From: Escallonia rubra
Lineage: Eukaryota; Streptophyta; Magnoliopsida; Escalloniales; Escalloniaceae
Direction: 5' to 3'
Length of the DNA: 64,000 bases
NCBI GenBank assembly: GCA_033065855.1
Contig: JAVXUO010003005.1
Coordinates: 1-64,000, forward strand
Both the position numbers and the translations under genes were made by a program. Below the pieces are notes generated by a model. It was given only the letters and a program-made list of their open reading frames with translations, did not search any database and had not been told where the DNA came from. Of the stretch, positions 6,022 through 54,590 are shown piece by piece. Positions within the stretch are counted from its first letter, which is position 1. Every line of letters starts with the position of its first letter.

Positions 6022-6170
6022 CTATTCATCTTCATCTTCATCTTCTTCTTGATCTTCATCGTCATCAACATCTTCATCTTCTTCTTGATCTTCATCGTCA
6101 TCAACATCTTCATCTTCATCATCAAAATCCTCATCTAGATCTTCATCTTCATCTTCATCATCAAAATTAC
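6022..6170 (-). repeat. GAT/GAA microsatellite coding an acidic tail
   Basis: CATCTTCATCTTC-type repeats (plus-strand view) encode the Asp/Glu run at the transposase C-terminus. A 42-base block (CTTCTTGATCTTCATCGTCATCAACATCTTCAT type) is duplicated in tandem near 6045-6115. Acidic tails occur in related transposases, but the length here is probably expanded by slippage. Confidence 0.8.
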
Positions 6171-9100
6171 CATCCTCTTCAACATCTTCCTCAGAATTGA
6201 TATTTTCTTCTTCCTTGTCATTAAGAAAAGCACCAATTATTCTCCTGCTACTTGGGTGACCGGACTGCCCTCTCCTCTGTCTGTTTGGCACATCCCTTGG
6301 AACAACTAACTCTCCTTCTACGTCATTCCTTAGCCAAGTAATGTTGTCTATATCTAGCTCTACAGGTTGTGGCAATGGACTTGAGTTCATAAAGGGCAAA
6401 TCATTATCAATTTCAGGCTCTGCTTCAACATTCTCACACAAGTCTCGGGGCTTTGTTCGTACTACAACACGCCAACCATTATCCCTTTCATCATCAACGT
6501 AAAACACTTGTTCTACCTGAGAGGGAAATACAAATGGATCTGTCTGAAAGCCAAACCTTGTCCTGTTCACAAGCGTGTACCCGTAGCGATCAATCTTAAT
6601 CCCTCTATCGCGTGATTTAACATCGTACCATTTGCACTTAAACAACACCACCTTGCCAACCCCATAGTAATCTAACTCTAATATGCTTTCAAGAATACCA
6701 AAGTATTCCAAAAGTTGATCCACTGGGTTCGTGTCTTTGGACGAGGAATATCCACGGGTCATTGCAGTCACAACAATGCCGCTGTTTTGAGTTTTACGTT
6801 GCATCTCAAGGCTTTCCGTATGAAATCGGTACCCATTAACTAAGTAGCCCTTCCCTGTCTTGCATATATCATTTGGACCCCGTGCCAGGGCTTTAAGTTC
6901 TTTGGAGGCCCCATCTGCTGTGGATTTAATCTGCGATTACAAAGATATTAAGATAGTCTAATCACATTATGATACATATATGTTTGCATATGGGTATATA
7001 TATCTGTGTGTGATATGAATTAGATATGCTAAATCCTCACGTAATCACTAAACCACAACGGAAACTCTTTCTTTTGTGCTGTATCAACATCCCACTGCAT
7101 CATTCTTTTACGCTTTCTCATCCTTAGTTCACTGGTGTCTCTCCAAATCCTGCAACATGCACCCATCAACAAAGGGCAATGATATAGATTGTAGATCGTT
7201 ATGAGACATAATTAAACAACACGTATGACCCCATTCTTACTTGATGTACTTCTCAACCTCATCACAGTTGGATAACACATACTGATGAGCCATCTCTTTA
7301 TCCTTACAATCAATTGGAATATGCAAAGGAGTCCCTAGAAAGCGACCTCTTTGTTCAAATACAGATAAGCCTGCCCTTTGTACAATGTATCCATCGTTGT
7401 TTCTTCCGACTCGGTTCCAAGAATCATCAACATCTCTTAAGTATCTTGAGCAAAATATAAGGCACTGTTCTGCAATATAACCTTCTGCGATTGACCCTTC
7501 AGGACGACTTCTACATCTAATGTACCCTTTAATCTTGTACATATACCTATATATATCGCAGCAAAACATATTACCCCACAAATATCTGCAACTGTATAAA
7601 AGAAACACTAGTAAAATAATCATATATAACCTAAAATCCTCACCTTTCAAAAGGGAACATCTGACGATATTTCACTGGACCAGCAAGCCTAGCTTCTTCA
7701 GCTAAGTGAATCGGTAAATGCACCATTATATCAAAAAAGGATGGAGGAAATATCATCTCAAGACGACACATAATTTCTGCAATCTTCTTGTTCAACCGCT
7801 CAAAGTCTTCTACTCGGTAATTTGTCGAGCACAGATCTCTAAAGTAATGGCACAGATCAATAATAGCAGAGCATACATGCGGCGTAAGTGACCCTCTAAT
7901 TGCTAGTGGAAGTAGTTGTTGCATCAATATGTGACAATCATGGCTTTTCAACCCCGAGATCTTACGCTCTTTGACATTGACGCATCTAGATATATTTGCC
8001 GAATAACCATCCGGAACCTTTACATTCTTCAACACTTCAAGAACTTTGGTTTTCTCATCCTTTGACATGGTAAAGCATGCAGCAGGCAATTCGTATCGAT
8101 CCCCCGACGTGCCAATTGGTCTAGGATGTAATTCTGCCCTAATATTCCTATCTTGCAAGTCAAGTCGAGATTTAAGATTATCCTTTGTCTTCCCCTTCAG
8201 ACCTAATAATGTTCCCATGAGGCTATCACAAATGTTTTTCTCAATATGCATTACGTCTAAATTATGGCGATGGAGAAGGGTCTTCCAATATGACAATTCA
8301 AAGAAAATACTTTTTTTCCTCCAATTATGCGTGGCAGCTTTGGGGACGGTGTGTTTAGTTTTCTTCCCAAAAGTGACATCAATGTCTTTTATCATTTCAG
8401 CTACATCAAAACCAGAAGGTACGACAGGAGCTTCCCTGAACTCACATTCTCCATTGAAACTTCGTTTATCGCGTCTAAATTTATGATCCAACTCTAGAAA
8501 AGAACGATGTGCATTGTAACATTGCTTACCACGTATTCGTTCCGAGCACGTACTTCCCAGACAAGCTGGACACGCTAACTTACCTTTGGTGCTCCATCCA
8601 GAAATCATGGCCAATGCTGGAAAGTCACTAATGGTCCATAACACTGCTGCACGCATTGTGAATGTAGTCTTGGTAGCAGCATCATATGTTTCAACCCCAG
8701 CAAACAAGGCCTGAAGCTCCTCAATCAATGGTCTTAAATAAACATCAATATCATTCCCCGGGGAAGTCGGTCCAGGTATCAACAATGGCATAACCATATT
8801 ACACTGCTTCATACACATTGACGGGGGTAAGTTGTAAACAACCATAGTCACCGGCCATATACTATGATTCGAGCCATGGGTGAAAGGATCCATACCGTCA
8901 GTTGACAAACCAAGCCTAATGTTGCGAGGGTCAGAAGCGAATGATGGGTGCATTTCATCGAAGTGTTTCCAAGCCAAAGAGTCGGCAGGATGGCGATTTA
9001 CCCCGTCTTTTCGTCGGTTTCTATCATGCCATACCATATCAATTGCTGTTTCGGGTGACATGTACATCCTTTGTAAAGCTTGAGTTAATGAAAAGTGCCG

Positions 9101-9910
9101 CAACTGTTTAACGGCAACTTTATGACGTTTTGACTTAGAGGTTTGAACTACACTCATGTCATCTGGCTTGCCTTGTACCGTCTTCCACCTTGGTTCCTTA
9201 CAAACTGAACAAGATCTCTTCTTGTTGTTCTCCTTCCAATATAACATGCAATCGTTTGGGCACACATCAATCTTTTCATAACTAAACCCCAAGTCTCCTA
9301 TCAATTTTCTTGTTTCATAATAGTTGGCTGGCAGTTGCTCTCCGGCAGGAATTATCACTCTTAATTTGTCTATCAACGTGTCAAATGACTTGTCACTCCA
9401 CTTACTAGTACACTTCAAATTAAAAAGCCAAACAATGAAAGACAACTTAGTTTCTGACTTGCATCCTGGATACAATTCTTGGTTCGCTTCATTCATGTAC
9501 TTATCAAATTTTGCAGCCTTGGTGCAAGGATCATCTTGAAGTCGATTTCTAAGAACGTCATTAACTAGTTCAGGCATTCTATCGACTTCAACTTCGTGTA
9601 CAGGATCCCTGGTCTCAACATCATTCAAAAGCGTGTTGCCTTCACCTTGAACCTCGCCGTGATTAACCTCACCATGATCTGTCCATATTCTATAGTGATT
9701 TGCAAATCCTCTCATAACTAAATGTTCTTCGACTGTCTCCCGTTTCTGGAATAAACCATTGACACACCTTGTACAAGGACACAAAATCTCTCCTGAAGAA
9801 GTACCCACGTTACGGAATGCGAAATCAAGAAATCTATTAACACCTTGATGATAAGCTTGTGAGGCCCTTGGCAAGTTAAGCCATTCCTTGTCCATATTAG
9901 GTCCCTTCAT
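6022..9910 (-). CDS. CACTA (En/Spm) transposase, TNPD type, four exons, no internal stop
   Basis: Exons on the minus strand are 9910-7644, 7546-7241, 7149-7041 and 6930-6022. All have GT/AG introns and the phases join exactly, giving 1196 aa. The start could also be the sixth residue (MDKEWLNLPRAS), which better fits the family N-terminus. Domains: transposase-associated domain at about 6-80 with CPCTRC cysteines; Tnp2 transposase at about 280-600, including LGLSTDGMDPF, a Cys/His insert near 447-475 and HNLDVMHIEKNICDSL near 549; DUF4218 at about 655-760 ending PVKYRQMFPFERYM; DUF4216 at about 950-1040. An Asp/Glu tail follows from about 1130 to the end, encoded by a GAT/GAA microsatellite. 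The enzyme should cut and rejoin the element's ends in the nucleus. The undamaged frame is unusual for plant CACTA genes and suggests a young or recently active element. Confidence 0.9.
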
Positions 9911-10285
9911 GTAAGTAATAAATTAGTTGCAGCGTAATCATTATCTATGTGAATAAAGGAAAACATAAGTTACTTGTACAAGGTAATAGATATACCAAAC
10001 TCACCTACCACACAAGGTAACTAGACTTTGCTCCCATAAGCAGCCACTTATGGATACCATATTATTACAGCATTTCAGATTAAATGATTTGATTAGGGAG
10101 CCACTGTGATACACCAAAATCATTGCTCTCGGGTACCGTTCACAACTTAAACAGCCCCAAAAGTATATCCCTTTAAAACCCTTACCTTAACTATAGCTTC
10201 TTAATCACCAACTATACAAATTTAAGCCCTAGCTCATCATACCAGCAGTTTTTTACCGCTGCTATAGCCACAGTTTCTTGTAGTG

Positions 10286-28959: not shown

Positions 28960-29660
28960 CAAATATTCAAAGAGTGCTCTGCTCGGACAAGGTTCTGTTC
29001 GGACACGGTTCTGCTCGGGCAGAGTTCTGTTCGGATTTTTTAACTCGGACCATGTTCTGCTCGGATTATTCTGCTCAGACTATGGGCCTGTTCGGATTTT
29101 TCTGCTCGGACCATGTTGTGCTCGGCTATGGGCCTGTTCGGATTTTTCTGGTTGGACCATGTTCTGCTCGGATTATTCTGTTTGGACCATGTTTTGCTCG
29201 GACTATGGGCCTATTCGGATTTTTCTGCTCGGACCATGTTCTGCTCGGCTATGAGCCTGTTCGAATTTTTCTGCTCGGACCATGTTCTGCTCGGACTATG
29301 GGCCTGTTCGGATTTTTCCGCTCGGACCATGTTCTGCTCGGACGTTGGGCTCGGACCACGATCTGCTCAGATTTTTTCTGGTCAGACCATGGCATGCTCG
29401 GACTATGGCCCGAGCTAAGAAGCCCCAACATTCTGCTCGGTTGTTGGGCTCGGACCACGATCTGCTCGGACGTTGGGCTCGAACCACGATCTGCTCGGAC
29501 GTTGGGCTCGGACCACGATCTGCTCGGATTTTTTCTGGTCTAACCATGGCCTGCTCGGACTATGGTTCGAGCTGAGAAGCCCCAATATTCTGCTCGGTCG
29601 TTGGGCTCGGACCACGATCTGCTCGGACATGCTGTGCGGGCTTGCTGCGCGGACGCGGGC
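28960..29660. repeat. Short-period repeats of CTCGGACCATGTTCTG type, copy A
   Basis: More than twenty variants of TGCTCGGAC, CATGTTCTGCTCGGA and GGGCTCGGACCACGATCTG follow one another every 20 to 50 bases. The same array is present in region B at 32850-33520. It lies in the non-coding 3' part of the retroelement just inside the LTR. Arg/Ser-rich and Cys/Asp-rich open frames in it are artefacts of the repeat. Confidence 0.85.
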
Positions 29661-29900: not shown

Positions 29901-31597
29901 GGGTAAATCACACAAAACTCTCCTGAGGTTTTACATAATTATACTCCACTACCGCTATCTTTAAAAATTATACTCCGCTCAAAAAGTAACATTTTTTCTT
30001 ACGGTGTTAACGATACAATGCAAAAAGACATAAATGCCCCTCAACAACATTTTCTTGGAATTTGGCTGAAATTTACAAAAACTGAGAAATCTGGCTCTTC
30101 ACTATTGCCTACTGACATCAAGTCAAAAAAAACAAAATGCTGCAGTCTCTCGACAACAAATGGTGATTCAATGAAGCATCTCAAAATGTGATCCCATTTT
30201 GGATAATACCCCAGAATGGTTCAGGGCCCTTTTCTCAGTGTGCTTTCTTTGTTCTCTTTCTGTTTTCATGACCCTCCACCTCCCGGCGGCGACGACCCTC
30301 CAGCTTCAGGCGACGACGACCCTTCATTTTCCAGCGACGACGACCCTCCAGTTTTCGGCTACGACGACCCTCCATTTTCCAGCGACGACATAGCCAAGAT
30401 GGCCTCATCTCCCTTCTCTCGTCTCCCGTCTCCCTACGGCTCATATCACCACCATCATGCCAGTCACCATCGTACCTCAGGACCACCACCATCACCACCA
30501 ATCTGATGCCCACCATCAACACCCTAGATCTAAACGCCTTCACATAATATAAACCCACCCTCGTTCACCCTTACCCATAACCACCGATCTACACGCCGGA
30601 GCTTGCCCTTTAAGGTTTACCTTGTGCAGAAGAAAATCTGTTGCTAACATCAAATACCAAAAAATATAAAAAGATAAGGATCTATAACAAAGAACTCCAT
30701 TCAAAATTGTTTTTCCTAATCCTCAATGTATATTTTTTATCCCATTTTATCAGGGTTCCTTCTCAATGTTTTTTTTTTTTTGGACAAAATTTGGAAGAGG
30801 AGCTATCTTACTTAATCAACCCAAACATTTTCCCATCCATCAGAATTAGAAGACTCGGAAGTAAGGCCTTTTGCTGGTCTACTGCCCACATGATTTGTAC
30901 CCGATGACTTCAATGCCTTCTCCTCATCCCAGTCATCATCCCAACCTTGATCCCAACCTTCTGGTGTTTCCCCATTTCCATTTACAGATGAAAGGAACGC
31001 TGGCTTGCCCATCACAAGTTCCTGGTATGGAACTTCGTCAAGATGTCGTCCCCTTTTTCCAAACATAAAGCACGCCCACATCCCTCCCATGATCAGAGCT
31101 GCCACAAACAGTACATAAGACCTTGTAGGCAGCGGCAAGCTCCTGGAAGGCGGCGGGGGAGACGCCGAACTGAGCGAGCTTGTTCGGGCGGCGCTGGAAG
31201 GCAAGTCGGCGGTAGGCGGAGTGGATCTCGTCGGCGGTGCAGTCGCCGCCAAGCCCCAACACCTTGTATTGGCACCGCTTTCCCAGCAATGCCATGTTAT
31301 ACGGCATTTAGGGTTTGTTTAGGAATGGACCCTTTGTAGAGTACTTATTTTGTTTTTGGGAGAATAGTATATGTATTTTATTTTATAAAATGTTATAAAG
31401 GGGGGGTATTTTGGGTATGAAAATTACATAAAGGAATGTGTCAGGGAATCTTGAAACGGAGTTGGACGGGCCGTTAAAAGTGTGTAGTTGTGTGTAATGC
31501 GGGTACAAACCTCAGGGGGGCGGAGTGTAATTTTTAAAGATAGCGGTAGTGGAGTGTAGTTACGTAAAACCTCAGGAAGTTTTAGTGTAATTTACCC
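29901..31597. mobile_element. Gene-capturing MULE (Pack-MULE-like), copy A
   Basis: The termini are long and inverted. Left is GGGTAAATCACACAAAAC with CTCCTGAGGTTTTAC; right, inverted, is GGGTAAATTACACTAAAAC with TTCCTGAGGTTTTAC. Similarity extends about 90 bases through ACTACCGCTATCTTTAAAAA. Adjoining bases are AAATTTTTT and TTTTTTTTT, a weak 9-bp duplication in a T run. Inside are minus-strand fragments resembling a DnaJ exon and a membrane-protein tail, with no transposase. Mutator-like elements carrying host exons are known as Pack-MULEs. The same element sits at 34934-36627, so it entered the retroelement before the array formed. Confidence 0.75.
30812..31307 (-). pseudogene. Captured chimera: DnaJ-domain exon + membrane-protein C-terminus, copy A
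   Basis: The first part (31307 to about 31115) reads [19 protein letters not shown], then [20 protein letters not shown] and FQELAAAYKVL. This matches the first three helices of a J domain like plant JJJ1-type proteins, except that the diagnostic HPD tripeptide reads RPN. The second part, in another frame (about 31113 to 30812), reads [20 protein letters not shown], a transmembrane segment, then EGWDQGWDDDWDEEKA and a final DGWENVWVD. That is the acidic Trp-rich tail of a plant single-pass membrane protein I cannot name. The frame change at the junction and the loss of HPD argue that no working chaperone is made. It lies inside the MULE. Confidence 0.72.
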
Positions 31598-32849: not shown

Positions 32850-33520
32850 AAAGAGTGCTCTGCTCGGACAAGGTTCTGTTCGGACACGGTTCTGCTCGGG
32901 CAGAGTTCTGTTCGGATTTTTCTACTCGGACCATGTTCTGCTCGGATTATTCTGCTCGGACTATGGGCCTGTTCGGATTTTTCTGCTCGGACCATGTTGT
33001 GCTCGGCTATGGGCCTGTTCGGATTTTTCTGGTTGGACCATGTTCTGCTCGGATTATTCTGTTTGGACCATGTTTTGCTCGAACTATGGGCCTATTCGGA
33101 TTTTTCTGCTCGGACCATGTTCTGCTCGGCTATGAGCCTGTTCGAATTTTTCTGCTCGGACCATGTTCTGCTCGGACTATGGGCCTGTTCGGATTTTTCC
33201 GCTCGGATCATGTTCTGCACGGACGTTGGGCTCGGACCACGATCTGCTCGGATTTTTTCTGGTCTGACCATGGCATGCTCGGACTATGGCCCGAGCTGAG
33301 AAGCCCCAACATTCTGCTCGGTCGTTGGGCTCGGACCACGATCTGCTCGGACGTTGGGCTCGGACCACGATCTGCTCGGATTTTTTCTTGTCTAACCATG
33401 GCCTGCTCGGACTATGGCTCGAGCTGAGAAGCCCCAATATTCTGCTCGGTCGTTGGGCTCGGACCACGATCTGCTCGGACATGCTGTGCGGGCTTGCTGC
33501 GCGGACGCGGGCCTGATGGT
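32850..33520. repeat. Short-period CTCGGACC repeats, copy B
   Basis: This is the counterpart of the array at 28960-29660, with near-identical order and minor copy differences. It lies just inside LTR 2 in region B. Confidence 0.85.
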
Positions 33521-34933: not shown

Positions 34934-36627
34934 GGGTAAATTACACAAAACTCTCCTGAGGTTTTACATAATTACTCCACTACCGCTATCTTTAAAAATT
35001 ACACTCCGCTCAAAAAGTAACATTTTTTCTTACGGTGTTAACGATGCAATGCAAAAGGACATAAATGCCCCTCAACAACGTTTTCTTGGAATTTGGCTGA
35101 AATTTACAAAAACTGAGAAATCTGGCTCTTCACTCTTGCCTACTGACATCAAGTCAAAAAAACAAAATGCTGCAGTCTCTCGACAACATATGGTGATTCA
35201 ATGAAGCATCTCAAAATGTGATCCCATTTTGGATAATACCCCAGAATGGTTCAGGGCCCCTTTCTCAGTGTGCTTTCTTTGTTCTCTTTCTCTTTTCATG
35301 ACCCTCCACCTTCCGGCGGCGACGACCCTCCAGCTTCAGGCGACGACGACCCTTCATTTTCCAGCGACGACGACCCTCCAGTTTTCGGCTACGACGACCC
35401 TCCATTTTCCAGCGACGACATAGCCAAGATGGCCTCATATCCCTTCTCTCGTCTCCCGTCTCCATACGGCTCATATCACCACCATCATGCCAGTCACCAT
35501 CGTACCTCAGGACCACCACCATCACCACCAATCTGATGCCCACCATCAACACCCTAGATCTAAACGCCATCACATAATATAAACCCACCCTCGTTCACCC
35601 TTACCCATAACCACCGATCTACACGCCGGAGCTTGCCCTTTAAGGTTTACCTTGTGCAGAAGAAAATCTGTTGCTAACATCAAATACCAAAAAATATAAA
35701 AAGATAAGGATCTATAACAAAGAACTCCATTCAAAATTGTTTTTCCTAATCCTCAATGTATATTTTTTATCCCATTTTATCAGGGTTCCTTCTCAATGTT
35801 TCTATTTTTTTTTTGGACAAAAATTGGAAGAAGAGCTATCTTACTTAATCAACCCAAACATTTTCCCATCCATCAGAATTAGAAGACTCGGAAGTAAGGC
35901 CTTTTGCTGGTCTACTGCCCACATGATTTGTACCCGATGACTTCAATGCCTTCTCCTCATCCCAGTCATCATCCCAACCTTGATCCCAACCTTCTGGTGT
36001 TTCCCCATTTCCATTTACAGATGAAAGGAACGCTGGCTTGCCCATCTCAAGTTCCTGGTATGGAACTTCGTCAAGATGTCGTCCCCTTTTTCCAAACATA
36101 AAGCACGCCCACATCCCTCCCATGATCAGAGCTGCCACAAACAGTACATAAGACCTTGTAGGCAGCGACAAGCTCCTGGAAGGCGGCGGGGGAGACGCCG
36201 AACTGAGCGAGCTTGTTCGGGCGGCGCTGGAGGGCAAGCCGGCGGTAGGCGGAGCGGATCTCGTCGGCGGTGCAATCGCCGCCAAGCCCCAACACCTTGT
36301 ATTGGCACCGCTTTCCCAGCAATGCCATGTTATACGGCATTTAGGGTTTGTTCAGGAATGGACCCTTTGTAGAGTACTTTTTTTTTTGGGAGAATAGTAT
36401 ATGTATTTTCTTTTATAAAATGTTATAAAGAGGGGGTATTTTGGGTATAAAAATTACATAAAGGAATGTGTCAGGGAATCTTGAAACGGAGTTGGACGGG
36501 CCGTTAAAAGTGTGTAGTTGTGTGTAATGCGGGTACAAACCTCAGCGGGGCGGAGTGTAATTTTTAAAGATAGCGGTAGTGGAGTGTAATTACGTAAAAC
36601 CTCAGTAGGATTTAGTGTAATTAACCC
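34934..36627. mobile_element. Gene-capturing MULE, copy B
   Basis: This is the second copy of the element at 29901-31597, with termini GGGTAAATTACACAAAAC and, inverted from the right, GGGTTAATTACACTAAATC. It is nearly identical along its length to copy A, as expected if the two arose by duplication of the surrounding retroelement rather than by separate insertions. Confidence 0.75.
35845..36340 (-). pseudogene. Captured DnaJ + membrane-protein chimera, copy B
   Basis: The organisation is the same as in copy A. The J-domain part reads [20 protein letters not shown], closer to the family norm than copy A (R for H, L for F). The tail again ends DGWENVWVD. The HPD tripeptide is also RPN here, so that change predates the duplication. 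Confidence 0.7.
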
Positions 36628-43260: not shown

Positions 43261-43593
43261 CTAATGGTTTTCATTTTTCCGGTGTACTGCATACACATGG
43301 GCCTTGCAGCCGGTACCCGGAAATGTATCCCATTTTTTTTGTCTTGTTAGCCCTTTGTCACTGATCCGTACAACCGGGGGTACATGCGGTGCTCCTCTAT
43401 GACACTCAAATAGTCTTCCACAAATTTGATCTGTATTCGTCCGTTTTCTAGTCGTCTTAATTCTAATACCGAAACCTATCGTTTTCGAATATGCTCTATA
43501 GTATGCTTCAACTTTGTCCAGTGTTTGAAAAACTTGACCCAAGTAAGGTGGATCAGAATCTTCATAAAAATTATTTCCTCCTGTTGCATCCAT
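43261..43593 (-). pseudogene. FAR1-type DNA-binding domain fragment
   Basis: The frame starts MDATGGNNFYEDSDPPYLGQ and continues FQTLDKVEAYYRAYSKTIGF then GIRIKTTRKRTN, CGRLFECHRG and GTGCKAHVYAVHRK (110 aa). This is the N-terminal FAR1 zinc-binding (WRKY-GCM1-like) domain, found in FHY3/FAR1 transcription factors and in the MULE transposases they derive from. The first 14 residues are the acidic leader. No MULE transposase or SWIM domain follows, so it is a single-exon fragment. It lies amid LTR-like sequence and could be a host FAR1 exon, a MULE remnant, or captured sequence. Confidence 0.78.
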
Positions 43594-43689
43594 ATTTATA
43601 CTGAAATCTAAAAAATAAAAATTATATCATTCTCAAAAAGTCATAGAATTAAATAAAATAAAAATTATTTCCTCCAGTTGTGTCCCGTT

Positions 43690-45380: not shown

Positions 45381-46134
45381 CTGAAATTTTTCCCTGATAT
45401 AGATCTTTTAAAAATAACTAGGGTTTTTTTTTGCACTTTGGCAAAATCTAGCTCTAGATATTTTTTATAAATTCGTGAAAAATTCAAATTTTGACGCCCT
45501 AAAAAATCGCTATTTTGGAATCTATAAATGTAATACCCTGATTTGTATAAACCTAATTTTGACGCCCTAAAAACCCGCTCATCCGATCTTCGATTGATCT
45601 GATTTTTGTTTCGTTCAATTTGTATTTTCGTTATCTTCGATTTGAGTCTACAATGACTATTTTTGGACTTCGAATGAATATTCGCTAATAAACACTAGTT
45701 CAATCCCTAATTTCAAACTCTAAAAAAAACACGAATTTTAAACTATGGTAAGAACAATTTAAACATAAGACAATTTAAACAATCCATTGGTAAAAACAAT
45801 TTGAAATTAACATTGAATTATAAGAAAATTCAAAATACTTACTTGTTTTAACTTGATATATTTAAAGAAAAATCCACCGATCTTCTAGCGTAAATTTCTT
45901 TTTGTTTGTATCATTGTGGAGATTATGTAGGTGAGATTTGGAGTATGAAGAGAGTTGGTAAAGATGATGGAGAGTGGAAGAAAGGGTTCGGGGAGAACGG
46001 CTTATAAAGAGAGAACAGTGAAGGAGAGAGAAGAAAGAAGACAGAGAAAAAAAATCCGTGAGTGAGCAGTAGTCAAAGGCTGTGGAAAAAGACTGTGCGG
46101 CCGAGCTTTAAGCTGGCTCTGGAAAAAGGACAGA

Positions 46135-46345
46135 AGGGGGGGGGGGGGGAAGGACACCACGTGGGGGGGGGGAGGGGGCATCACGGGGGGGGGGAAGGAC
46201 TCCACGTGGCCGGAGGGGAAGGACACCATGTGGCAGGGGGGAAGGACACCACGTGGCAGGGGGGGAACCGCAACACTTTGTTGCAGTTTGGCCACGTGGC
46301 AGGAAGGGGGGAAGGGAAGGACACCACGTGTCGCGGGGGGAGGGG
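46135..46345. repeat. G-rich minisatellite with clustered CCACGTGGC boxes
   Basis: About seven units of GGGAAGGACACCACGTGGC type, 25-60 bases apart, are separated by G runs of up to 11. Each carries a G-box/ABRE-like CACGTG core, sometimes altered (CATGTG). G-box and ABRE elements are bound by bZIP and bHLH factors in plants; whether these copies are bound is unknown. Confidence 0.8.
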
Positions 46346-46349
46346 GGAC

Positions 46350-46632
46350 CGCAACACTTTGTTGCGGTTTGGGGGCCTTTGACGGTAAAGGACAACCGCA
46401 ACAAAGTGTTGCGGTTAGGTTTTTGGCATGGAAAATGGGGATTTACACGGTGGGCCCCCAACCGCTACTCTTTCTTGCGGTTGGGGTTGAAGGGCATAAA
46501 TGTCAAATTTTGCAACCGCATGAAAGAGTAGCGGTTGCTACTCTTTCAAAATTAAAAAAAAACACATCTGAGCTGTCCACGAGTACATGTGGACGGCTAC
46601 ATTTTTGGTGGAGAAATAATAATTTCTCCACC
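46350..46632. repeat. Series of hairpins built on AACCGCAACA and AACCGCTACTC
   Basis: Three inverted repeats are packed together. AACCGCAACA and TGTTGCGGTT are separated by three bases (46394-46416). CAACCGCTACTCTTTC pairs with GAAAGAGTAGCGGTTG (46459-46474 and 46522-46537). GGTGGAGAAAT pairs with ATTTCTCCACC (46607-46617 and 46622-46632). This looks like the end of an unclassified transposon. A short stretch at 46570-46600 resembles the end of the long-TIR elements to the right. Confidence 0.8.
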
Positions 46633-46661
46633 GGTAGACAGGGATCGGATATATATATATA

Positions 46662-48321
46662 GGGAGCTGATCCGTTGATAGCGCTAGCAAAATAGGATAA
46701 GTTGCAAACGCGATCTGGCCGTCCACGGGCGATTTGTGGACGGTCCAGATTTTTTTTTTACGTTTTTTTTAAGTCCGTCCGCTACATAATGTAGCAGATA
46801 TGTAGCGGATGAATTTTTGACAAAAATACCCTTCAGCTCCATCTGCTAAATTATGTAGCGACGAGTAGCCAGATACTACTTTTTTTTCTCTTTCTCTGTC
46901 CTTTCTCTCACTATCCTTTTGACATCTCTCTCTCTCTCTCTCTCTCTCCTTTCTCATTTCTCTCTCTCTCTCTCTCCTTTCTCATTTCTCTCATCAATTT
47001 ATGACACTTTCTCTTTCTTTCTCTATCTTTCCTCTCTCTCTCTCTCATTTCTCTCCCCTATCTCTTTCTTTCTCTCTCTTTTCTCTCACCATGATTTCTT
47101 TTATGGGTTCTATTGATGCTCAATAATACCGACCAGGATGTAAGAAAAAAGAAGATAGCCTTGTCTGTACACAGGGATGCTCTTGGTATAGCAAGTGTTG
47201 TTGCTGTAATGCTTAGCTTATCAATACTCTTGCTGTTGGGCGTACTTGATTAGGATGACTGCTTAAGTGAAACATCTGCAACCATATACTTTGGCTTGGT
47301 TTGCAGTCTTAGTGGGAATGACAGGCCAATTGACAAATCTTGGAATTATTTCCTGTTTTGGAATGCCATTTCTTGTTATTTCCTGCTATGTTGGGTTTGT
47401 TTTGGAATGGTAGGCCAATCACATACTACTATGTTATGTTGGGTTTGTTTTGTATTGAACTTCAGACCGCATTATCCGAACAAGTACATGTCAAATCGTA
47501 GAACAAATTCAAGCCAATACAGCAGCCACCACAAATATCCTCATGATCTCTGTGACTTGAACAGACAAAACATCCAATCCCGCTGTCACCACATTTACTA
47601 GACTCTTCCCTAGCTTTCTAGACTGGTCTCTCGTCTTTCTCTCTACAGTCAAAACCAACACCTCTGCAAGAGCCTCATCATGCAATCCCACCTCAACGCG
47701 GGTCTTCATTTCTTTCGATGGCCACCATTTTCACTTCTTCATACTCCCTATCTTCATGGATTAACAACAAGAGTCACTGCACGACGCCTCCTCCTCTCCA
47801 CAAGCACTCATTTGGCCTAAAAACCTGACCCTCATAGTGTCTCTCCTCTAAACCCAACTCCCAAAGATTCAGTTTCTCTATCAAAGCAGAGAAAGAAACT
47901 AAACCCTCCACTTATTCTTCATCCTTTGTTGCTGTGGTTGAGGAAGAACAGGAAAATGAGGACAGTGAGAGAAACGAGAAAGAGAGAGAGATAGAGAGGG
48001 GGGAAAGAAAGAGAAAGGACAGTGAGAGAAACGAGAGAGAGAGAGAGAGAGAGAGATGTCAGAAGGATAATGAGAGAAAGGACAGAGAAATGACAGAGAA
48101 AGAGAAAAAAATTAGTGTCTCGCTACTCGTCCGCTAAATAATGTAGCGAATGGAGCTGGAGGGTATTTTTGTCAAAAAATCGTCCACTACATTATGTAGC
48201 GGACGTACCTAAAAAAAGATAAAAAAAAAAAAGATCTAGACCGTCCACAGATCGCGCGTGCACGGCCAGATCGCGCTGGCAACTTAACTCCATTTGCTAA
48301 CGCGAGCAATGGATCAGCTCC

Positions 48322-48322
<1 letters not shown>
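46662..48322. mobile_element. Long-TIR element 1 in an (AT)n/(CA)n site
   Basis: The left end GGGAGCTGATCCGTTG and the inverted right end GGGAGCTGATCCATTG open terminal inverted repeats that can be followed for about 400 bases. They pass through GCGATCTGGCCGT, TCCGCTACATAATGTAG and a long CTCTCT/GAGAGA tract. The internal part (about 47100-47930) has no transposase. ATATATATATA touches the left end, and ACACACACATATATAT the right. The long TIRs suggest a MULE- or foldback-type non-autonomous element; the superfamily is not settled because the duplication is hidden in the simple repeat. Confidence 0.85.
47130..47900. other. Interior of long-TIR element 1; possible captured transit-peptide exon
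   Basis: A plus-strand frame near 47717 reads MATIFTSSYSLSSWINNKSH then CTTPPPLHKHSFGL, which has the Ser-rich look of a plastid transit peptide, followed by stops. A minus-strand frame at 47709-47509 (LVNVVTAGLDVLSVQVTEIM) has no recognised family. Capture of host gene pieces is possible, but nothing here is decisive. Confidence 0.25.

Positions 48323-48401
<79 letters not shown>
48323..48401. repeat. (CA)4(TA)n microsatellite between two long-TIR elements
   Basis: About 36 TA units follow a short CA run. It joins the right end of element 1 directly to the left end of element 2. Confidence 0.95.
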
Positions 48402-48404
<3 letters not shown>

Positions 48405-49880
48405 AGCTGATTCGTTGACCGCACGGGCAAAATGCGCTAAGTTGCCTGAGCGATCTGGTCGTCCACGCGCGATCTGTGGACGATCCAAATCTTTTATTTT
48501 TTGTCTGCGTTTTTTTAGTACGTCCACTACATAATGTAGTTGATAATTTTTTGACGAATATACCCCTCAAAAACCAAGTCAAGATGTTCTCTTTCCTAAA
48601 ATATTGTCCACTACATTATGTAGCGGACGATATTTTAGGAAAGAGACAGAATATGTCCCTTCCAAACATACTACTACCAAGGCTAATCAGTTGTCCCTTT
48701 TTGGTTATTTGAATTGTCCCATTAGGAACTACTGATGTACAAGGCTAATCAGCTGCTCAATGAATACCATGTGGGTGTTTATTCTGTTTCTCCTTCCTCT
48801 GTTGTTGTTTCTCCCTCTTCTCAGATTTGATCTCTCCATTTATGTCTCTCCCTCCTTTAAGAGAATTCCTCTTCAAGTCTATCTCCACTAGTTCAACATT
48901 ACCAAACTTCAAGTGTAGAGACAACCAAGATCGAGAAGGAACTATAAGGGTATTCACGACAAATTGACGCAAAACAATACGTAAAACTCGTACCCCTTCT
49001 GCTCCAAAATAACAGATCACATTTCCTTTTTGGGATGTCTTAAAATAAATGATCACTTTACTCTTTAGGGATCATAGCATGTCCTAAATTATTCTCTCAT
49101 TTTCTTGCAACCAGCCATCCTTTCAACACAGTTTCATTAATAGAAACCAACTACACATGCTATCTTCTGCAGTCTCAACCCCAGATTCTTCTGCCAAAAA
49201 GGAAAAAAAAATGCAATTCGTACCACGAATGGATAAACAGTGGTGATCGTTGCTGACATCGTGAGAATGAGCAATAAAGAGTCGATAAGTTAAACAGTGG
49301 CTATAGTTTAGTTCGGTTGCCTACTAAACATGCTATCTCCTTTGATATGCTACGGGGGGATCTAATTTAAATTAAATTAGAATAAAATTTGGGGGGAAAA
49401 AGTTGGAAGAAAATCTGGAGAATTCCTTTGCGGTAAGAGATGAAAGGGATAATGGAAGTGGGTTTTAGGAAGAGGCAGTAGTTTAGAAGAAAATGGATTT
49501 TAGTGGGTTTGCGGCAAGGCAGATTTTTACAAGAAAGAGATGAAAGGGATGATGGAAATGGGTTTGGGAAGAGGCAGAATTGAAAGAGAGATTATGGAAG
49601 TAGGATGAAGATAGAGAGATAGAAAGATGAAAGTGACGATTGTTTGGCAATTCTTTTACATGTCATCCGCTACATTATGTAGCGGATAGACACTTTAACT
49701 TCATAATCAATTGCGTGGACGAGGGACAATATGGTAAAAAGTTTCGACCGCTACATTATGTGGCGGACGAACTTTTAAAAAACAAAAAAAATAGATATGG
49801 TCCGTCCATCCGCGATGGATGGACGGCCAGATCGCGCCGGCAACTTAACACAAACTGCCCGCGCGGTCAACGGATCAGCT

Positions 49881-49883
<3 letters not shown>
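48402..49883. mobile_element. Long-TIR element 2 in an (AT)n site
   Basis: The left end TGGAGCTGATTCGTTGACCG and the inverted right end TGGAGCTGATCCGTTGACCG match each other and element 1, with terminal inverted repeats of at least 170 bases. It is bordered by (AT)n on both sides (48331-48401 and 49884-49952). Palindromic CCGCTACATTATGTAGCGG motifs occur at 48605, 49667 and 49750 and also in element 1. The internal sequence differs from element 1 and encodes nothing recognised. Confidence 0.87.
48588..48646. repeat. Near-perfect hairpin inside long-TIR element 2
   Basis: The arms TCTCTTTCCTAAAATATTGTCC-like and GGACGATATTTTAGGAAAGA pair over 22 bases with one or two mismatches, around a TACATTATGTA core that itself pairs. 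It resembles a small-RNA precursor in shape; no evidence of transcription is visible. Confidence 0.8.

Positions 49884-49952
<69 letters not shown>
49884..49952. repeat. (AT)n microsatellite
   Basis: About 34 AT units abut the right end of long-TIR element 2. Confidence 0.95.
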
Positions 49953-49954
<2 letters not shown>

Positions 49955-50760
49955 ATGCCAAGGGAAGTGGGTTCGTACCTACGTGGAAGTGCCACAAAGG
50001 CTGCAGTCCGAGTTAGCTTCCAAGTATGCAAAGTGAGAGACATTGAGGGCGGAGTAAGGGCAGAGATCAAGGCTTTCCAGACAGACTGTGAGGAGTGGCA
50101 GTGCTGCGGAGGCAAGGCTGAGATGAACAGGGCCGGCAGTCGATAGTCCAAGTCAAGGTCTGAGTCGGGGTCAAATGCTACGGTCCAAAGTTACGGTCCA
50201 AGGTTATGTCCAATTTGTGTTTATCTCTTCAGAATTCAAGAGCTCCCAAATTCTAGAGTGCGAAAGTGATTTTGTGAGAAATGAGAAAAAGTCTTTGAAT
50301 AAGTCATAAAGTCCAGTATTTTTAGGAAACAGTGTGCCTGTGTCATAAAATGCCACATGTCATCCCCTGGAGTGACATGTCACCAAGGGGTCCCAAAATA
50401 TCGGTTCTCCGTTGAACTGTCGGTTCCCAAATTTGCGTTACCTGCCCCACACAGCGTCGTTCTACCTGTCTGAGAAGACTGAACACACCATGACAGCATG
50501 ATCAGAGTAAGCCCGTTGCCCCAGCCACCGGTCCAAGCTCTTACTGAATCCCACAAGATGAAAAATGCATAGAGAACCTGACAGCTGTGAGGGTTGCCCC
50601 TGTAGCCAACTGCCAGGCAGATTAGGCACGATGCCCTCCAAACACCTACTCCCGTCCCGGAGTGACCCGGGTGTCCTCGTCCTGGGGGCACCGATGATCA
50701 CTGGTAACGTGAGTGGACATGGTCACAGCTCAGCGCCTAGTATCATGCAAGTCACCCAAG
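49953..50760. other. Unassigned, LTR-element-like non-coding sequence
   Basis: GC content rises compared with the left side. No protein is recognised; the open frame that runs from 50565 into the repeats begins in non-repetitive sequence but has no family signature. It may be the non-coding part of an LTR element that also holds the arrays to the right. Confidence 0.3.
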
Positions 50761-50764
50761 CCGG

Positions 50765-51465
50765 CGATAGCTTTGTGGTAACGAGCATATCCCACTGTGA
50801 AGGGTCCTCATGCCGGAGCACTACGAGCGAAGCCCCCCGGAATAAAGACGGCAATAACTTTGTGGTAACGAGCCTATCCCGTTGCGAAGGGTCCTCGTGC
50901 CGAAATACTGCGAGCGGAGCCCCCCGGAATGAAGACGGTGATAGATTTGTGGTAATGAGCCTATCCCACTGTGAAGGGTCCTCGTGCCGGAGCACTACGA
51001 GCGGAGCCCCCCAAAATAAAGACGGCGATAGCTTTGTGGTAACGAGCCTATCCCGCTATGAAGGGTCCTCGTGCCGGAGCACTACGAGCGGAGCCCCCCG
51101 GAATGAAGACGGCGATAACTTTGTGGTAACGAGCCTATCCCGCTGCGAAGGGGGATCCTCGTGCCGGAGCACTACGAGCAGAGCCCCCCGGAATAAAGAT
51201 GGCGATAGCTTTGTGGTACCGAGCCTATCCCGCTGCGAAAGGGGGTCCTCGTGCCGGAGCACTATGAGCGGAGCCCCCCAGAATGAAGATGGCGATAGCT
51301 TTGTGGTAACACGCCTATCCCGCTGTGAATGGGGGTCCTCGTGCCGGAGCACTACAAGCGGAGCCCCCCGAAATGAAGACGGCAATAGCTTTGTGGTAAC
51401 GGGCCTATCCCGCTGCGAAGGGTCCTTGTGCCGGAGCACTACGAGCAGAGCCTCTCTAAATACTG
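50765..51465. repeat. Eight tandem units of 87-90 bp, open in frame
   Basis: Units start with GATAGCTTTGTGGTAACG and include CCTATCCCGCTGCGAAG, CCTCGTGCCGGAGCACTACG and GAGCCCCCCGGAATGAAG. Starts are near 50765, 50852, 50939, 51026, 51113, 51203, 51293 and 51383. Because 87 and 90 are multiples of three, a frame stays open and reads SLSRCEGSSCRSTTSGAP-type repeats of 29-30 residues; the opposite strand is also open. I regard this as a minisatellite, not a proven gene. Confidence 0.92.
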
Positions 51466-51639
51466 CACACTCCGGAGAGTGGGTCGAAGCATGTTCCACG
51501 TCCATGGCGCGGGCACATGGTGTGGTGAATGAGTGTGATGCCCGGAGGCATGTAACATGATTGTGGTGCCTACAGCACGAGGCATGATTATGGCGTATGG
51601 GCGTGATACCAATGGCATGAGACATTGATTGTGGCGCAC

Positions 51640-53340
51640 GGGCGAGCGACGAACGTCGCGAGACAATACCTGGTGCCGGGGGCACATATCATGGAAGTGG
51701 CGTACGGGCGCGGCGACGACCGTGGCGGAGACAATACCTGGTGCCGAGGCACGTATCATGGAAGTGGCGCACGTGCGCAACGACGAACGTCGCGGAGATA
51801 ATAGATGGTGCCCGAGGGTACATGTCATGGAAGTGGCGCACGGGCGAGACGACGAACGTCGCGGAGATAATGCCTGGTGCTGGGGCACATATCATGGAAG
51901 TGGCGCACGGACGCAGTGATGAATGTCGCGGGATAATACCTGGTGCCCGGGGGCACATGTCATGGAAGTGGCGCACGTGCGCGATGATGAACGTCACAGA
52001 GATAATACCTGGTGCCCGAGGGCACATGTCGTGGAAGTGGCGCATGGGCGCGGCGACGAACGTTGCGGAGATAATGCCTGGTTCTGGGGCATATATCATG
52101 GAAGTGGCGCACGGACGCAGTGACGAATGTCGCGGGATAATACCTGGTGCCCGGGGGCACATGTCATGGAAGTGGCGCACGTTCGCGACGATGAACGTCA
52201 CGGAGATAATACCTGGTGCCCGAGGGCACATGTCGTGGAAGTGGCGCATGGGCGCGGTGACGAACGTCACAGAGATAATGCCTGGTTCTGGGGCATATAT
52301 CATGGAAGTGGCGCACGGACGCAGTGACGAATGTCGCGGGATAATACCTGGTGCCCGGGGGCACATGTCATGGAAGTAGCGCACGTGCGCGACGATGAAC
52401 GTCACGGAGATAATACCTGGTGCCCGAGGGCACATGTCGTGGAATGGCGCATGGGCGCGACGACGAACATCGCGGAGATAATGCCTGGTTCCTGGGCATA
52501 TATCATGGAAGTGGCGCACGGACGCAGTGACGAATGTCGCGGGACAATACCTGGTGCCCGGGGGCACATGTCATGGAAGTGGCGCACGTGTGCGACAATG
52601 AACGTCACGGAGATAATACCTGGTGCCCGAGGGCACATGTCGTGGAAGTGGCTCACGGGCGCGACGACGAACGTCGCGGAAATAATGCCTAGTTCTGGGG
52701 CATATATCATGGAAGTGGCGCACGGACGCAGTGACGAATGTCGCGGGACAATACCTGGTGCCCGGGGGCACATGTCATGGAAGTGGCGCACGTGCGCGAC
52801 GATGAACGTCATGGAGATAATACCTGGTGCCCGAGGGCACATGTCGTGGAAGTGGCGCACGGGCGCGACGACGAACGTCGCGGAGATAATGCCTGGTTCT
52901 GGGGCATATATCATGGAAGTGGCGCACGGACGCAGTGACGAATGTCGCGGGACAATACCTGGTGCCTGGGGGCACATGTCATGGAAGTGGCGCACGTGCG
53001 CGACGATGAACGTCATGGAGATAATACCTGGTGCCCGAGGGCAGATGTCGTGGAAGTGGCGCACGGGCGCGACGACGAACGTCGCGGAGATAATGCCTGG
53101 TTCTGGGGCATATATCATGGAAGTGGCGCACGGACGCAGTGACGAATGTCGCGGGACAATACCTGGTGCCCGGGGGCACATGTCATGGAAGTGGCGCACG
53201 GGCGCGGCGACGAGCGTCGCGGAGACAATACCTGGTGCCGGGGCACGTATCATGGAAGTGGTGCTTGGGTGCGGCGATGAATGTCGCGGAGATAATACTT
53301 GGTGTCGGGGGCACATGTTATGAAAGTGGCGCACGGGCAC
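51640..53340. repeat. 68-bp satellite organised as a 204-bp higher-order repeat
   Basis: Monomers of about 66-69 bases share CATGGAAGTGGCGCACG, GACGAACGTCGCGGAGATAA and TACCTGGTGCC. In the core (about 51893-53140), three distinct monomer types alternate in fixed order: one with GGTGCCCGAGGGCACATGTC, one with TGCCTGGTTCTGGGGCATAT, and one with CGGACGCAGTGACGAATGTC. This gives a 204-base period repeated about six times. Flanking monomers on both sides are single-type and more divergent. Frames stay open on both strands since 204 is divisible by three; I do not take them as genes. Confidence 0.95.
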
Positions 53341-54590
53341 GGCGACGAGCGTCGCGGGGACAATACTCGGTGACGGGATCACGCATCATGAAAATGGTGC
53401 ACGGGCGCGGCGATGAATGTCGCGGAACAATACTCGGTGCCGGGGGCACGTATCATGAAAAGGACGCACGGGCGAGGCGACGAATGTCGCGAAGACGGCG
53501 CAGGGTGTCCCGGAGACAGGGCGTGAGCCAAGTGTGCATGTTATACCAAAATAATAAGTGCGATGTTTAGTAATGACAAAGTTGGGAGTGATGGTACACG
53601 ATCGTCGGCGACAGGTCACTTGGCGATAGCGCGCGACTTTGCCGCGACGGGCGGTGCGTGGTCGCGAGCGATGGACGACGGACGTCGCGAGGTTAAAGTT
53701 CGAACGTCCGTAAACATCGTGGAGGTGCAAAGACTAGAGAAACCAAGTGCGAACGGAAGGGGAGGCCATAGGCCAAAAATAGGGGGAAGGCCAAGGCCAC
53801 CGCCCCTGGGGAGGCCGAGGCCGACCCTAGGGGGTGGCCAAGGCCAATGGCCAACTCCCATGAAGGGAGGCCAAGACCACTCCCCCTTTTGGTGAACTTT
53901 GGGCGCTCCGATGGTAGGTGTTTTGATGGGCAATGACGAATCCGAAAGTTACGTTACGACGAGCGTGTTGCCATGAGTCGTACGACGAACACGGTGCCAA
54001 AGTCACGTACGAAGCAAACAAAGCGCAAAAAGGACTTTGCGCGAAAAGTGAACAACCGAGGGCGGAAAGGCCAAGGCCAACCCCCATGGAGGCCGAGGCC
54101 AACACCATGGGCTTGGGGGAGGCCGAGGCTAACCCCATGGGGTTGGCCAAGGCCTTTGCCCCTTGACCCCGTTGCTCCGGTTGTTCCGTCGATCAAATTT
54201 TTTGGTGAAAAGGTGTTCGGGTGGTCGCGGCGTGACGATCATGCTACTGTGAGTGACGTTAACAAGAAATAATTGGCGCCTAAGTGTGCGCACGAAGCAT
54301 TTGAACCAAAAAATACACGTGACTTGGCTGCGCGCACTTTGACCGGTTCGATGCGTTGAAAGATTGACCGTTGAATGTGTCGACGTGTTTGCGCAAAACG
54401 GGACCCCTAGTGGGCCTTGGGTCCGACCAAGATAGGATGGGAATATATAGATATATATATGTTTCCATACATGAAGAAAAGGTAGGTCCTAGAGTTTTCC
54501 CTTCAGATCGAATATCATATGCCTTGATTTTAGGAATGAATCATACCTATCCCGGTTCCCTCGTATGGCGGTCGATCTATCCCAAGTTGA
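53341..54590. other. GC-rich unassigned sequence with GGCCAAGGCC repeats
   Basis: Divergent satellite monomers fade out by about 53510. From 53755 to 54165, GGCCAAGGCCAA, GAGGCCGAGGCC and CCCATGGGG motifs recur in two clusters. TATATAGATATATATATG lies at about 54450-54467 and could be a promoter-like box. No protein is recognised. Confidence 0.5.

Follow-up and report, generated by a model that had tools for sequence, protein, structure and literature searches.

Two elements lying side by side in a 64,000-nucleotide (nt) stretch of the Escallonia rubra genome (positions 1 to 64,000 of contig JAVXUO010003005.1, assembly GCA_033065855.1; here called the window) are very probably nonautonomous Mutator-like elements (MULEs). 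They would belong to a family that makes a 9-base target duplication, prefers (TA)n and AT-rich DNA, and uses as its enzyme a transposase with FAR1, MULE, and SWIM domains; we give this reading a probability of about 0.92. Nonautonomous Mutator-like elements of this SaTar/MuTAnT kind are already known. What E. rubra adds is an apparently young burst of the transposase and the B3 gene that goes with it.

Structure of the elements in the window

A preliminary description, made from the sequence alone, had proposed two related elements with long terminal inverted repeats (TIRs), placed back to back with their ends touching TA-repeat DNA. This was confirmed for element 1 (46662 to 48322) and element 2 (48403 to 49882), whose TIRs are similar over about 400 bases (326/426 aligned columns) and about 310 bases (221/336 aligned columns), respectively. 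A dinucleotide repeat contacts all four ends, three directly with TA and one with CA followed by TA, and the repeat (CA)4(AT)36 is common to both elements. The features are as follows.

46626 to 46649, minus strand: terminus of a third element, related to the other two (element-0 type), with end GATCCCTGTCTACCGGTGGAG, facing element 1 across (TA)6
46650 to 46661, no strand: (TA)6, separating the element-0-type end from element 1 (from the sequence)
46662 to 48322, plus strand: element 1, nonautonomous, 1,661 bp (GGG...CCC), with termini GGGAGCTGATCC.../...GGATCAGCTCCC
46662 to 47069, plus strand: left TIR of element 1, aligned over about 408 bases
46776 to 46859, no strand: subterminal palindromes of the kind CCGCTACATWATGTAGCGG (from the sequence)
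47941 to 48322, minus strand: right TIR of element 1, aligned over about 382 bases
48323 to 48402, no strand: (CA)4(AT)36, separating elements 1 and 2 (from the sequence)
48403 to 49882, plus strand: element 2, nonautonomous, 1,480 bp (GG...CC), with termini GGAGCTGATTCG.../...CGGATCAGCTCC
48403 to 48720, plus strand: left TIR of element 2, aligned over about 318 bases
49573 to 49882, minus strand: right TIR of element 2, aligned over about 310 bases
49883 to 49952, no strand: (AT)35, on the right side of element 2 (from the sequence)

Both elements have inverted termini of the form GG(G)AGCTGATCC. Scanning the window with GGAGCTGATCCGTTGACCG and allowing up to three mismatches gave four matches, at 46663 (plus), 48321 (minus), 48403 (plus), and 49882 (minus); the same scan of 100 shuffles gave none. 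Palindromes of the CCGCTACATWATGTAGCGG type number eight over the two elements, the others starting at 48128, 48181, 48521, 48605, 49664, and 49745. A Pfam search with the two stop-to-stop frames of at least 120 codons that overlap the elements found no match. The statement that interiors differ while ends are kept holds for element 1: among the 40 places scored of 83 candidates, its interior was mostly present only in the window and on C177 (94%) and C2344 (93%, 766/861 bases), and the remaining scored places had smaller pieces of it in common. (C numbers denote contigs, and L numbers denote loci that we fetched.)

The array is old, because the same array with its right flank is found on C177 at 87%. 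Positions 46649 to 50879, comprising elements 1 and 2 and the right flank, align to C177 with 86.8% identity over 4,243 columns, and the left boundary of the similarity is at the (TA)n before element 1. Since C177 holds the same array and right flank, we dropped the idea of a fresh double insertion of elements 1 and 2. The left flank on C177 has no match in the window, so a jump of element 0 into the left (TA)n after the window/C177 duplication is unsupported.

Neighboring features

The element-0-type end reads leftwards from 46646 and has no second match within the window. Genome-wide it has 54 exact copies, some of which form plus/minus pairs 1 to 14 kb apart. The stretch from 46000 to 46649 has palindromes of the kind AACCGCAACA...TGTTGCGGTT, and on C3020 a 10.6-kb pair of this type adjoins a 10.4-kb GGGAGC element. 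A frame with a FAR1 DNA-binding domain at 43264 to 43626 (minus strand) is perhaps the remnant of an element-0-type transposase.

The right flank (49953 to 50600) is a repeat beginning TGATGCCAAGG. Several other copies in the genome have (TA)n directly before them, their matches beginning within the TA stretch; the copies in L031, L023, L029, and L038 do not. The repeat end GGGTAAATTACACTAAAACCCCCTGAGG occurs at 31455 to 31597 and 36485 to 36627 and in the right flank of L053. Several copies elsewhere in the genome have it next to (TA)n; those in the window do not. It is possibly another repeat-seeking family. The left flanks of L046, L067, and L025 have ends directly on TG/TA repeats, beside the elements, that resemble a Helitron 3' terminus, which we take them to be like from a hairpin and a CTAGT-like end. 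Elsewhere in the window there are a CACTA-type transposase frame (6022 to 9922, minus strand; Transposase_21 at 3e-84, Transpos_assoc, DUF4218, and DUF4216), a CTGCTCGGACCATG tandem array that occurs twice, about 3.9 kb apart (28978 to 29628 and 32859 to 33480), and large tandem arrays with 87-bp and 204-bp units (50758 to 51452; 51631 to 53495).

Family size and flanks across the genome

We searched the window's own assembly (566 Mb, 3,222 contigs) and found 3,889 exact GGAGCTGATCCNTTG ends (1,927 + 1,962). The reversed-pattern control gave 0, so these ends are not due to chance. At least 2,694 of the 3,889 (69%) are preceded by eight A/T bases and GGG. Among the ends of this class, the 100 that were listed, in contig order and not picked by hand, all lie on perfectly alternating TATATATA/ATATATAT.

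The loci that we fetched, partly by similarity to one end in the window and partly by the exact end pattern, agree with this. Of their 124 ends, 87 directly adjoin a perfect (TA) run ≥8 bases long; 11 are on a TA run of 5 to 7 bases, 8 are on another dinucleotide repeat, and 18 are on none by the rule of our script. In the rest of the window, only 81 of 60,479 positions (0.13%) adjoin such a perfect run. These counts omit L001 to L008, which are the same as later loci, and L051, which is the same as L050; they retain the near-duplicates L036/L057, L015/L017, and L029/L038. L030 is in the count of flanks and absent from the count of phase given below.

As in known repeat-seeking MULEs, then, most copies lie beside (TA)n, whether judged from the fetched ends or by the A/T criterion genome-wide. 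The idea of a transposon that targets microsatellites is supported by the comparison with the 0.13% background, and it is largely right that the family prefers mainly (TA)n for insertion. The converse, copies flanked mostly by nonrepeat DNA with a conventional duplication, was not what we found, although 9-bp duplications also exist. The likeness to Micron that had been suggested stands as to insertion in TA repeats; it is refined as to class, which is Mutator-like, as Micron itself is read in the passage of PMC5907723 that deals with it.

The terminal repeats could form a hairpin, columns 18 to 30 with columns 37 to 49. Pairing was scored over 84 distinct ends and holds in 851 of 1,080 cells (slid controls, ≤33%; shuffles, ≤818), and there are 51 double-change cells against at most 34. 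We claim no function for it; kinship alone can push pairing above that of shuffles without selection.

Gene-bearing relatives and the transposase

We looked for a partner transposase lying between same-motif ends and found one, with ends that have diverged from those in the window. CCTTG-type ends within the first 100 of the listing pair repeatedly at 5 to 10 kb and twice at 1.5 kb. One copy, L079 (C85:53683-60830), was read whole and has 7,057 bp between its ends. It has long TIRs like those of MULEs (about 300 to 340 bases; about 310 to 408 in the window elements). Its transposase is a stop-free frame of 783 codons with FAR1 (5e-12), MULE (PF10551; 1.4e-32), and SWIM (1e-4) domains. On the other strand is a Peptidase_C48 (Ulp1-like) stretch in one frame, broken by a stop that is perhaps an intron. 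A 91-codon frame covers the greater part of a B3 domain, with a match (2.6e-7) slightly above the curated cutoff. A PDB search with the B3 piece gave no match, and an NCBIfam search with the transposase gave only IS256/IS1249-type similarity below the curated cutoffs.

Of 4,803 candidates in a genome search with the transposase, the best 57 were scored, and all 57 are full length, stop free, and 99 to 100% identical. The B3 frame is intact at ≥98% in all 150 copies scored (1,400 candidates), and for 53 of the 57 transposases it follows 715 to 749 bases downstream on the same strand. A search for the 34-base terminal sequence of this branch gave 162 exact matches (control, 0), and the first 100 of them make 38 pairs spanning 1.5 to 11.3 kb. 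The end listing takes in contigs with 36 transposase copies: 20 of these are inside an exact 34-base end pair, 6 have the near end only, and 10 have no exact 34-base end alongside. Near ends were sampled from 14 gene-bearing copies: 12 sit directly on a (TA) run, in two cases on a repeat common to another element's end; of the others, L096 has a shortened end on (TA)n and L095 has no end in range.

The gene-bearing branch is likely to consist of 7- to 10-kb elements with a FAR1-MULE-SWIM transposase, an Ulp1-like gene, and a B3-domain gene. Judged from the sequences, the branch appears to be young and the transposase gene looks intact. An older, decayed relative lies at C3020:25500-35944, with PMD, Ulp1-like, and FAR1 pieces, a weak MULE match under the cutoff (E = 0.017), and (TA)n on both sides.

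Because the terminal motif and the target are common to them, the window elements and the gene-bearing elements would share one mobilization system. Over the first 62 bases, the left ends of elements 1 and 2 match that of L079 at 52 and 49 positions (79 to 84%). The window copies may have been moved by this transposase or by an older relation, such as the decayed element on C3020; the divergence of their ends from the L079 end would also allow another, perhaps extinct, relation.

Empty sites and growth of the repeat

A preference for (TA)n could be overstated if the elements insert into short AT-rich seeds and the repeats mostly grow afterwards, with little preference for existing microsatellites. 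Several comparisons suit this reading. A tandem paralogue of L019 without the insertion (flanks 94% and 88%) has no (TA)n and only AAAAAAATATTTTT, and L069 compared with L023 has short TA-rich DNA at an empty-like site. L036 and L057 share the same insertion and 99% identical flanks, and their repeats differ in length. Against it, copies with 99 to 100% identical transposases (L089, L092, and L097) are already in long (TA)n, and such identity leaves little time for growth. In addition, several ends occupy one repeat: 32 of 121 ends have a repeat in common with a second end, either of the same type or of a related one. We consider it unlikely that growth accounts for most of the (TA)n; rather, from the L036/L057, L019, and L069 comparisons, growth after insertion likely adds to a real target preference.

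A joined-flank search with 12 junctions (query of 1,510 letters; 40 of 4,112 candidates scored) found no contiguous empty site among the 47 matches reported. Paralogues of L027, L020, L054, L053, L046, L067, and L049/L016 were rejected as empty sites; their similarity either stops at the edge of another repeat or runs in inverted orientation.

Target duplication and phase

Exact 9-bp duplications were sought among ends with a chosen class of 9-mer outside perfect (TA)n, comprising 18 places for left ends (control, 0) and 27 for right ends (reversed control, 1). Four same-strand pairs less than 3 kb apart have an identical 9-mer, and reading the junctions gave the duplications TTAATTAAA (C1349), TATTAAAAA (C1684), ATATATAAA (C2282), and TTTATATAT (C2844). 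The remaining 14 of the 18 left ends have no partner with the same 9-mer inside the search pattern, no 9-bp partner end was found among the 27 right-end places for the preselected copies L037, L064, and L055, and C1001 was rejected as a pair because it is one place read on two strands. A fifth exact duplication, ATATATAAT, is at L021, whose right end is slightly changed. Conventional duplications of this kind, also known in repeat-seeking MULEs, are thus outside repeats in C1684 and at TA-rich edges in C1349, C2282, C2844, and L021.

These junctions bear on whether the element itself brings or generates the (TA)n, so that the mobile unit would be repeat plus element and the repeat would not be a target. 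The L019 paralogue that is empty and without (TA)n could be so explained, as could L017: near 2735 it has extra (TA)n and a 25-base element-end stub, and at the corresponding place its paralogue L015 (flank 95%) shows nothing but a GA tract. However, the right side of C2844 reads element, TTT, (TA)n; that of C1349 reads element, TTAATTAAA, (TA)n; and in L021 the alternation of the left repeat breaks down (TATATAAT) immediately before the element. Since letters that break the alternation stand between element and repeat, the (TA)n is on the target side. At C1684, moreover, where the 9-bp duplication is present, about 50 bases were read on either side and contain no (TA)n. We regard an element-borne repeat as highly unlikely.

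Inside a perfect repeat a duplication can be recognized by phase. In a 2-base repeat, an odd-length duplication makes the base before the element the same as the first base after it; with an even-length duplication or none, the two bases differ, and slippage by 2 bases leaves the phase unchanged. We paired plus/minus neighbors up to 13 kb apart among the 100 listed ends, between which ends outside the pattern may intervene. The phase was odd in 22 of 24 pairs and, when the end type was the same on both sides, in 21 of 22 (P = 5e-6). The exceptions are C46 and C83 (the same as L027); L027, the even same-type pair, carries an additional end stub next to its left end. Of 39 pairs formed in the fetched loci, 23 were scorable, as follows:

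GGG/CCC ends: 14 odd, 2 even (n = 16)
GGG/CC ends: 0 odd, 4 even
GG/CC ends: 1 odd, 2 even, with element 2 of the window among the even

The two even GGG/CCC pairs are L027 and L021, and the latter carries an exact 9-bp duplication.

The phase in 21 of 22 same-type pairs is that expected of an odd-length duplication inside (TA)n. With the exact 9 bp in five copies, this agrees with the 8- to 11-bp target duplication of MULEs. The authors of the guayule study, in its passages on SaTars (PMC5907723), doubted ordinary cut-and-paste inside microsatellites and suggested a route free of duplication. The pairs missing a terminal base, which are mostly even in phase, would fit such a route; loss or replacement at the border of element and repeat may explain them. 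But the route predicts even phase, and the 21 odd pairs make it scarcely credible here; unlike the guayule reading, the E. rubra phase argues for an ordinary duplication inside the repeat. TA flanks would also suit Tc1/mariner-type (Stowaway) elements, but the 9-bp duplications in place of a TA dinucleotide, the odd phase, the long TIRs, and the MULE transposase between same-motif ends leave that reading virtually no probability.

Proposed mechanism

We propose that a MULE family inserts with a 9-base target duplication, favoring (TA)n and AT-rich DNA. The duplication would be concealed inside the repeat and visible at repeat edges and elsewhere, as in the five copies above. Every insertion would leave (TA)n on either side, and this (TA)n may later change in length by slippage, as seen in one near-identical pair of loci, or may receive further elements to give side-by-side arrays such as those observed. 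The enzyme would be the FAR1-MULE-SWIM transposase from the 7- to 10-kb elements that have the same terminal motif, or for the window copies perhaps its older relation.

A bolder version is that this is a young, possibly still moving, repeat-homing Mutator whose insertions leave (TA) tracts that grow and receive more elements, making arrays that seed themselves, and that the B3 protein may aid in finding repeats or escaping silencing. We put this forward tentatively and consider it rather unlikely.

Comparison with known systems

The comparisons here are with what the cited papers say in their passages on the elements concerned. SaTars and AgS/ArS-MULEs of guayule and rice (PMC5907723) are alike in being nonautonomous MULEs of about 0.4 to 1.9 kb with inverted ends, mostly beside (TA)n, and in having a minority of conventional duplications, gene-bearing relatives with similar ends, and, apparently, side-by-side arrays. 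The duplication is 10 bp in guayule SaTars and 9 bp in the E. rubra family. Gene-bearing SaTar relatives are few, and several are called defective, whereas E. rubra has many stop-free transposase copies.

MuTAnT and AutoMuTAnT of Medicago (PMC4486113) share the (TA)n preference, the 9-nt duplication, foldback inverted repeats, and a complete transposase open reading frame (ORF). The E. rubra ends are not those of MuTAnT proper (GGGGTTTGCTAGAACA in the mask of PMC4486113, versus GGGAGCTGATCC here). AutoMuTAnT is described as one gene-bearing copy with a single ORF, compared with at least 57 transposase copies plus Ulp1-like and B3 genes in E. rubra, and MuTAnT has 218 copies, compared with 3,889 exact ends. 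Ac-mMITEs of pineapple (PMC8449440) are also alike, with >80% beside dinucleotide repeats, 9- or 10-bp duplications elsewhere, and 46% clustered; they differ in being shorter (210 to 570 bp), and a gene-bearing partner was not found there. Micron (rice) and TAFT (maize), which we know through papers that cite them, have TA-repeat insertion in common, a likeness by description only.

Ulp1-carrying MULEs (Kaonashi/KIU and others; PMC13317346 and PMC2528002) similarly combine a MULE transposase with an Ulp1-like gene; repeat seeking is not mentioned in the passages on them. A text search of PMC13317346 gave no B3 domain in its Ulp1-carrying MULEs, and a search of the literature for a B3-bearing MULE gave nothing plainly such, which does not prove absence.

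Significance

Repeat-seeking MULEs have been described from Medicago, rice, guayule, and pineapple, and by citation from maize. In the accounts of those systems cited above, the gene-bearing partner was single, or few and partly defective, or not found. In E. rubra the near-identical, stop-free transposase copies number at least 57, and for many of them the ends are defined. Scoring phase as odd or even, a simple test in a 2-base repeat, recovers the duplication hidden there. With stop-free transposase copies and the phase test together, the question of cut-and-paste inside microsatellites becomes directly testable, and the family provides a candidate transposase that may direct DNA to TA repeats.
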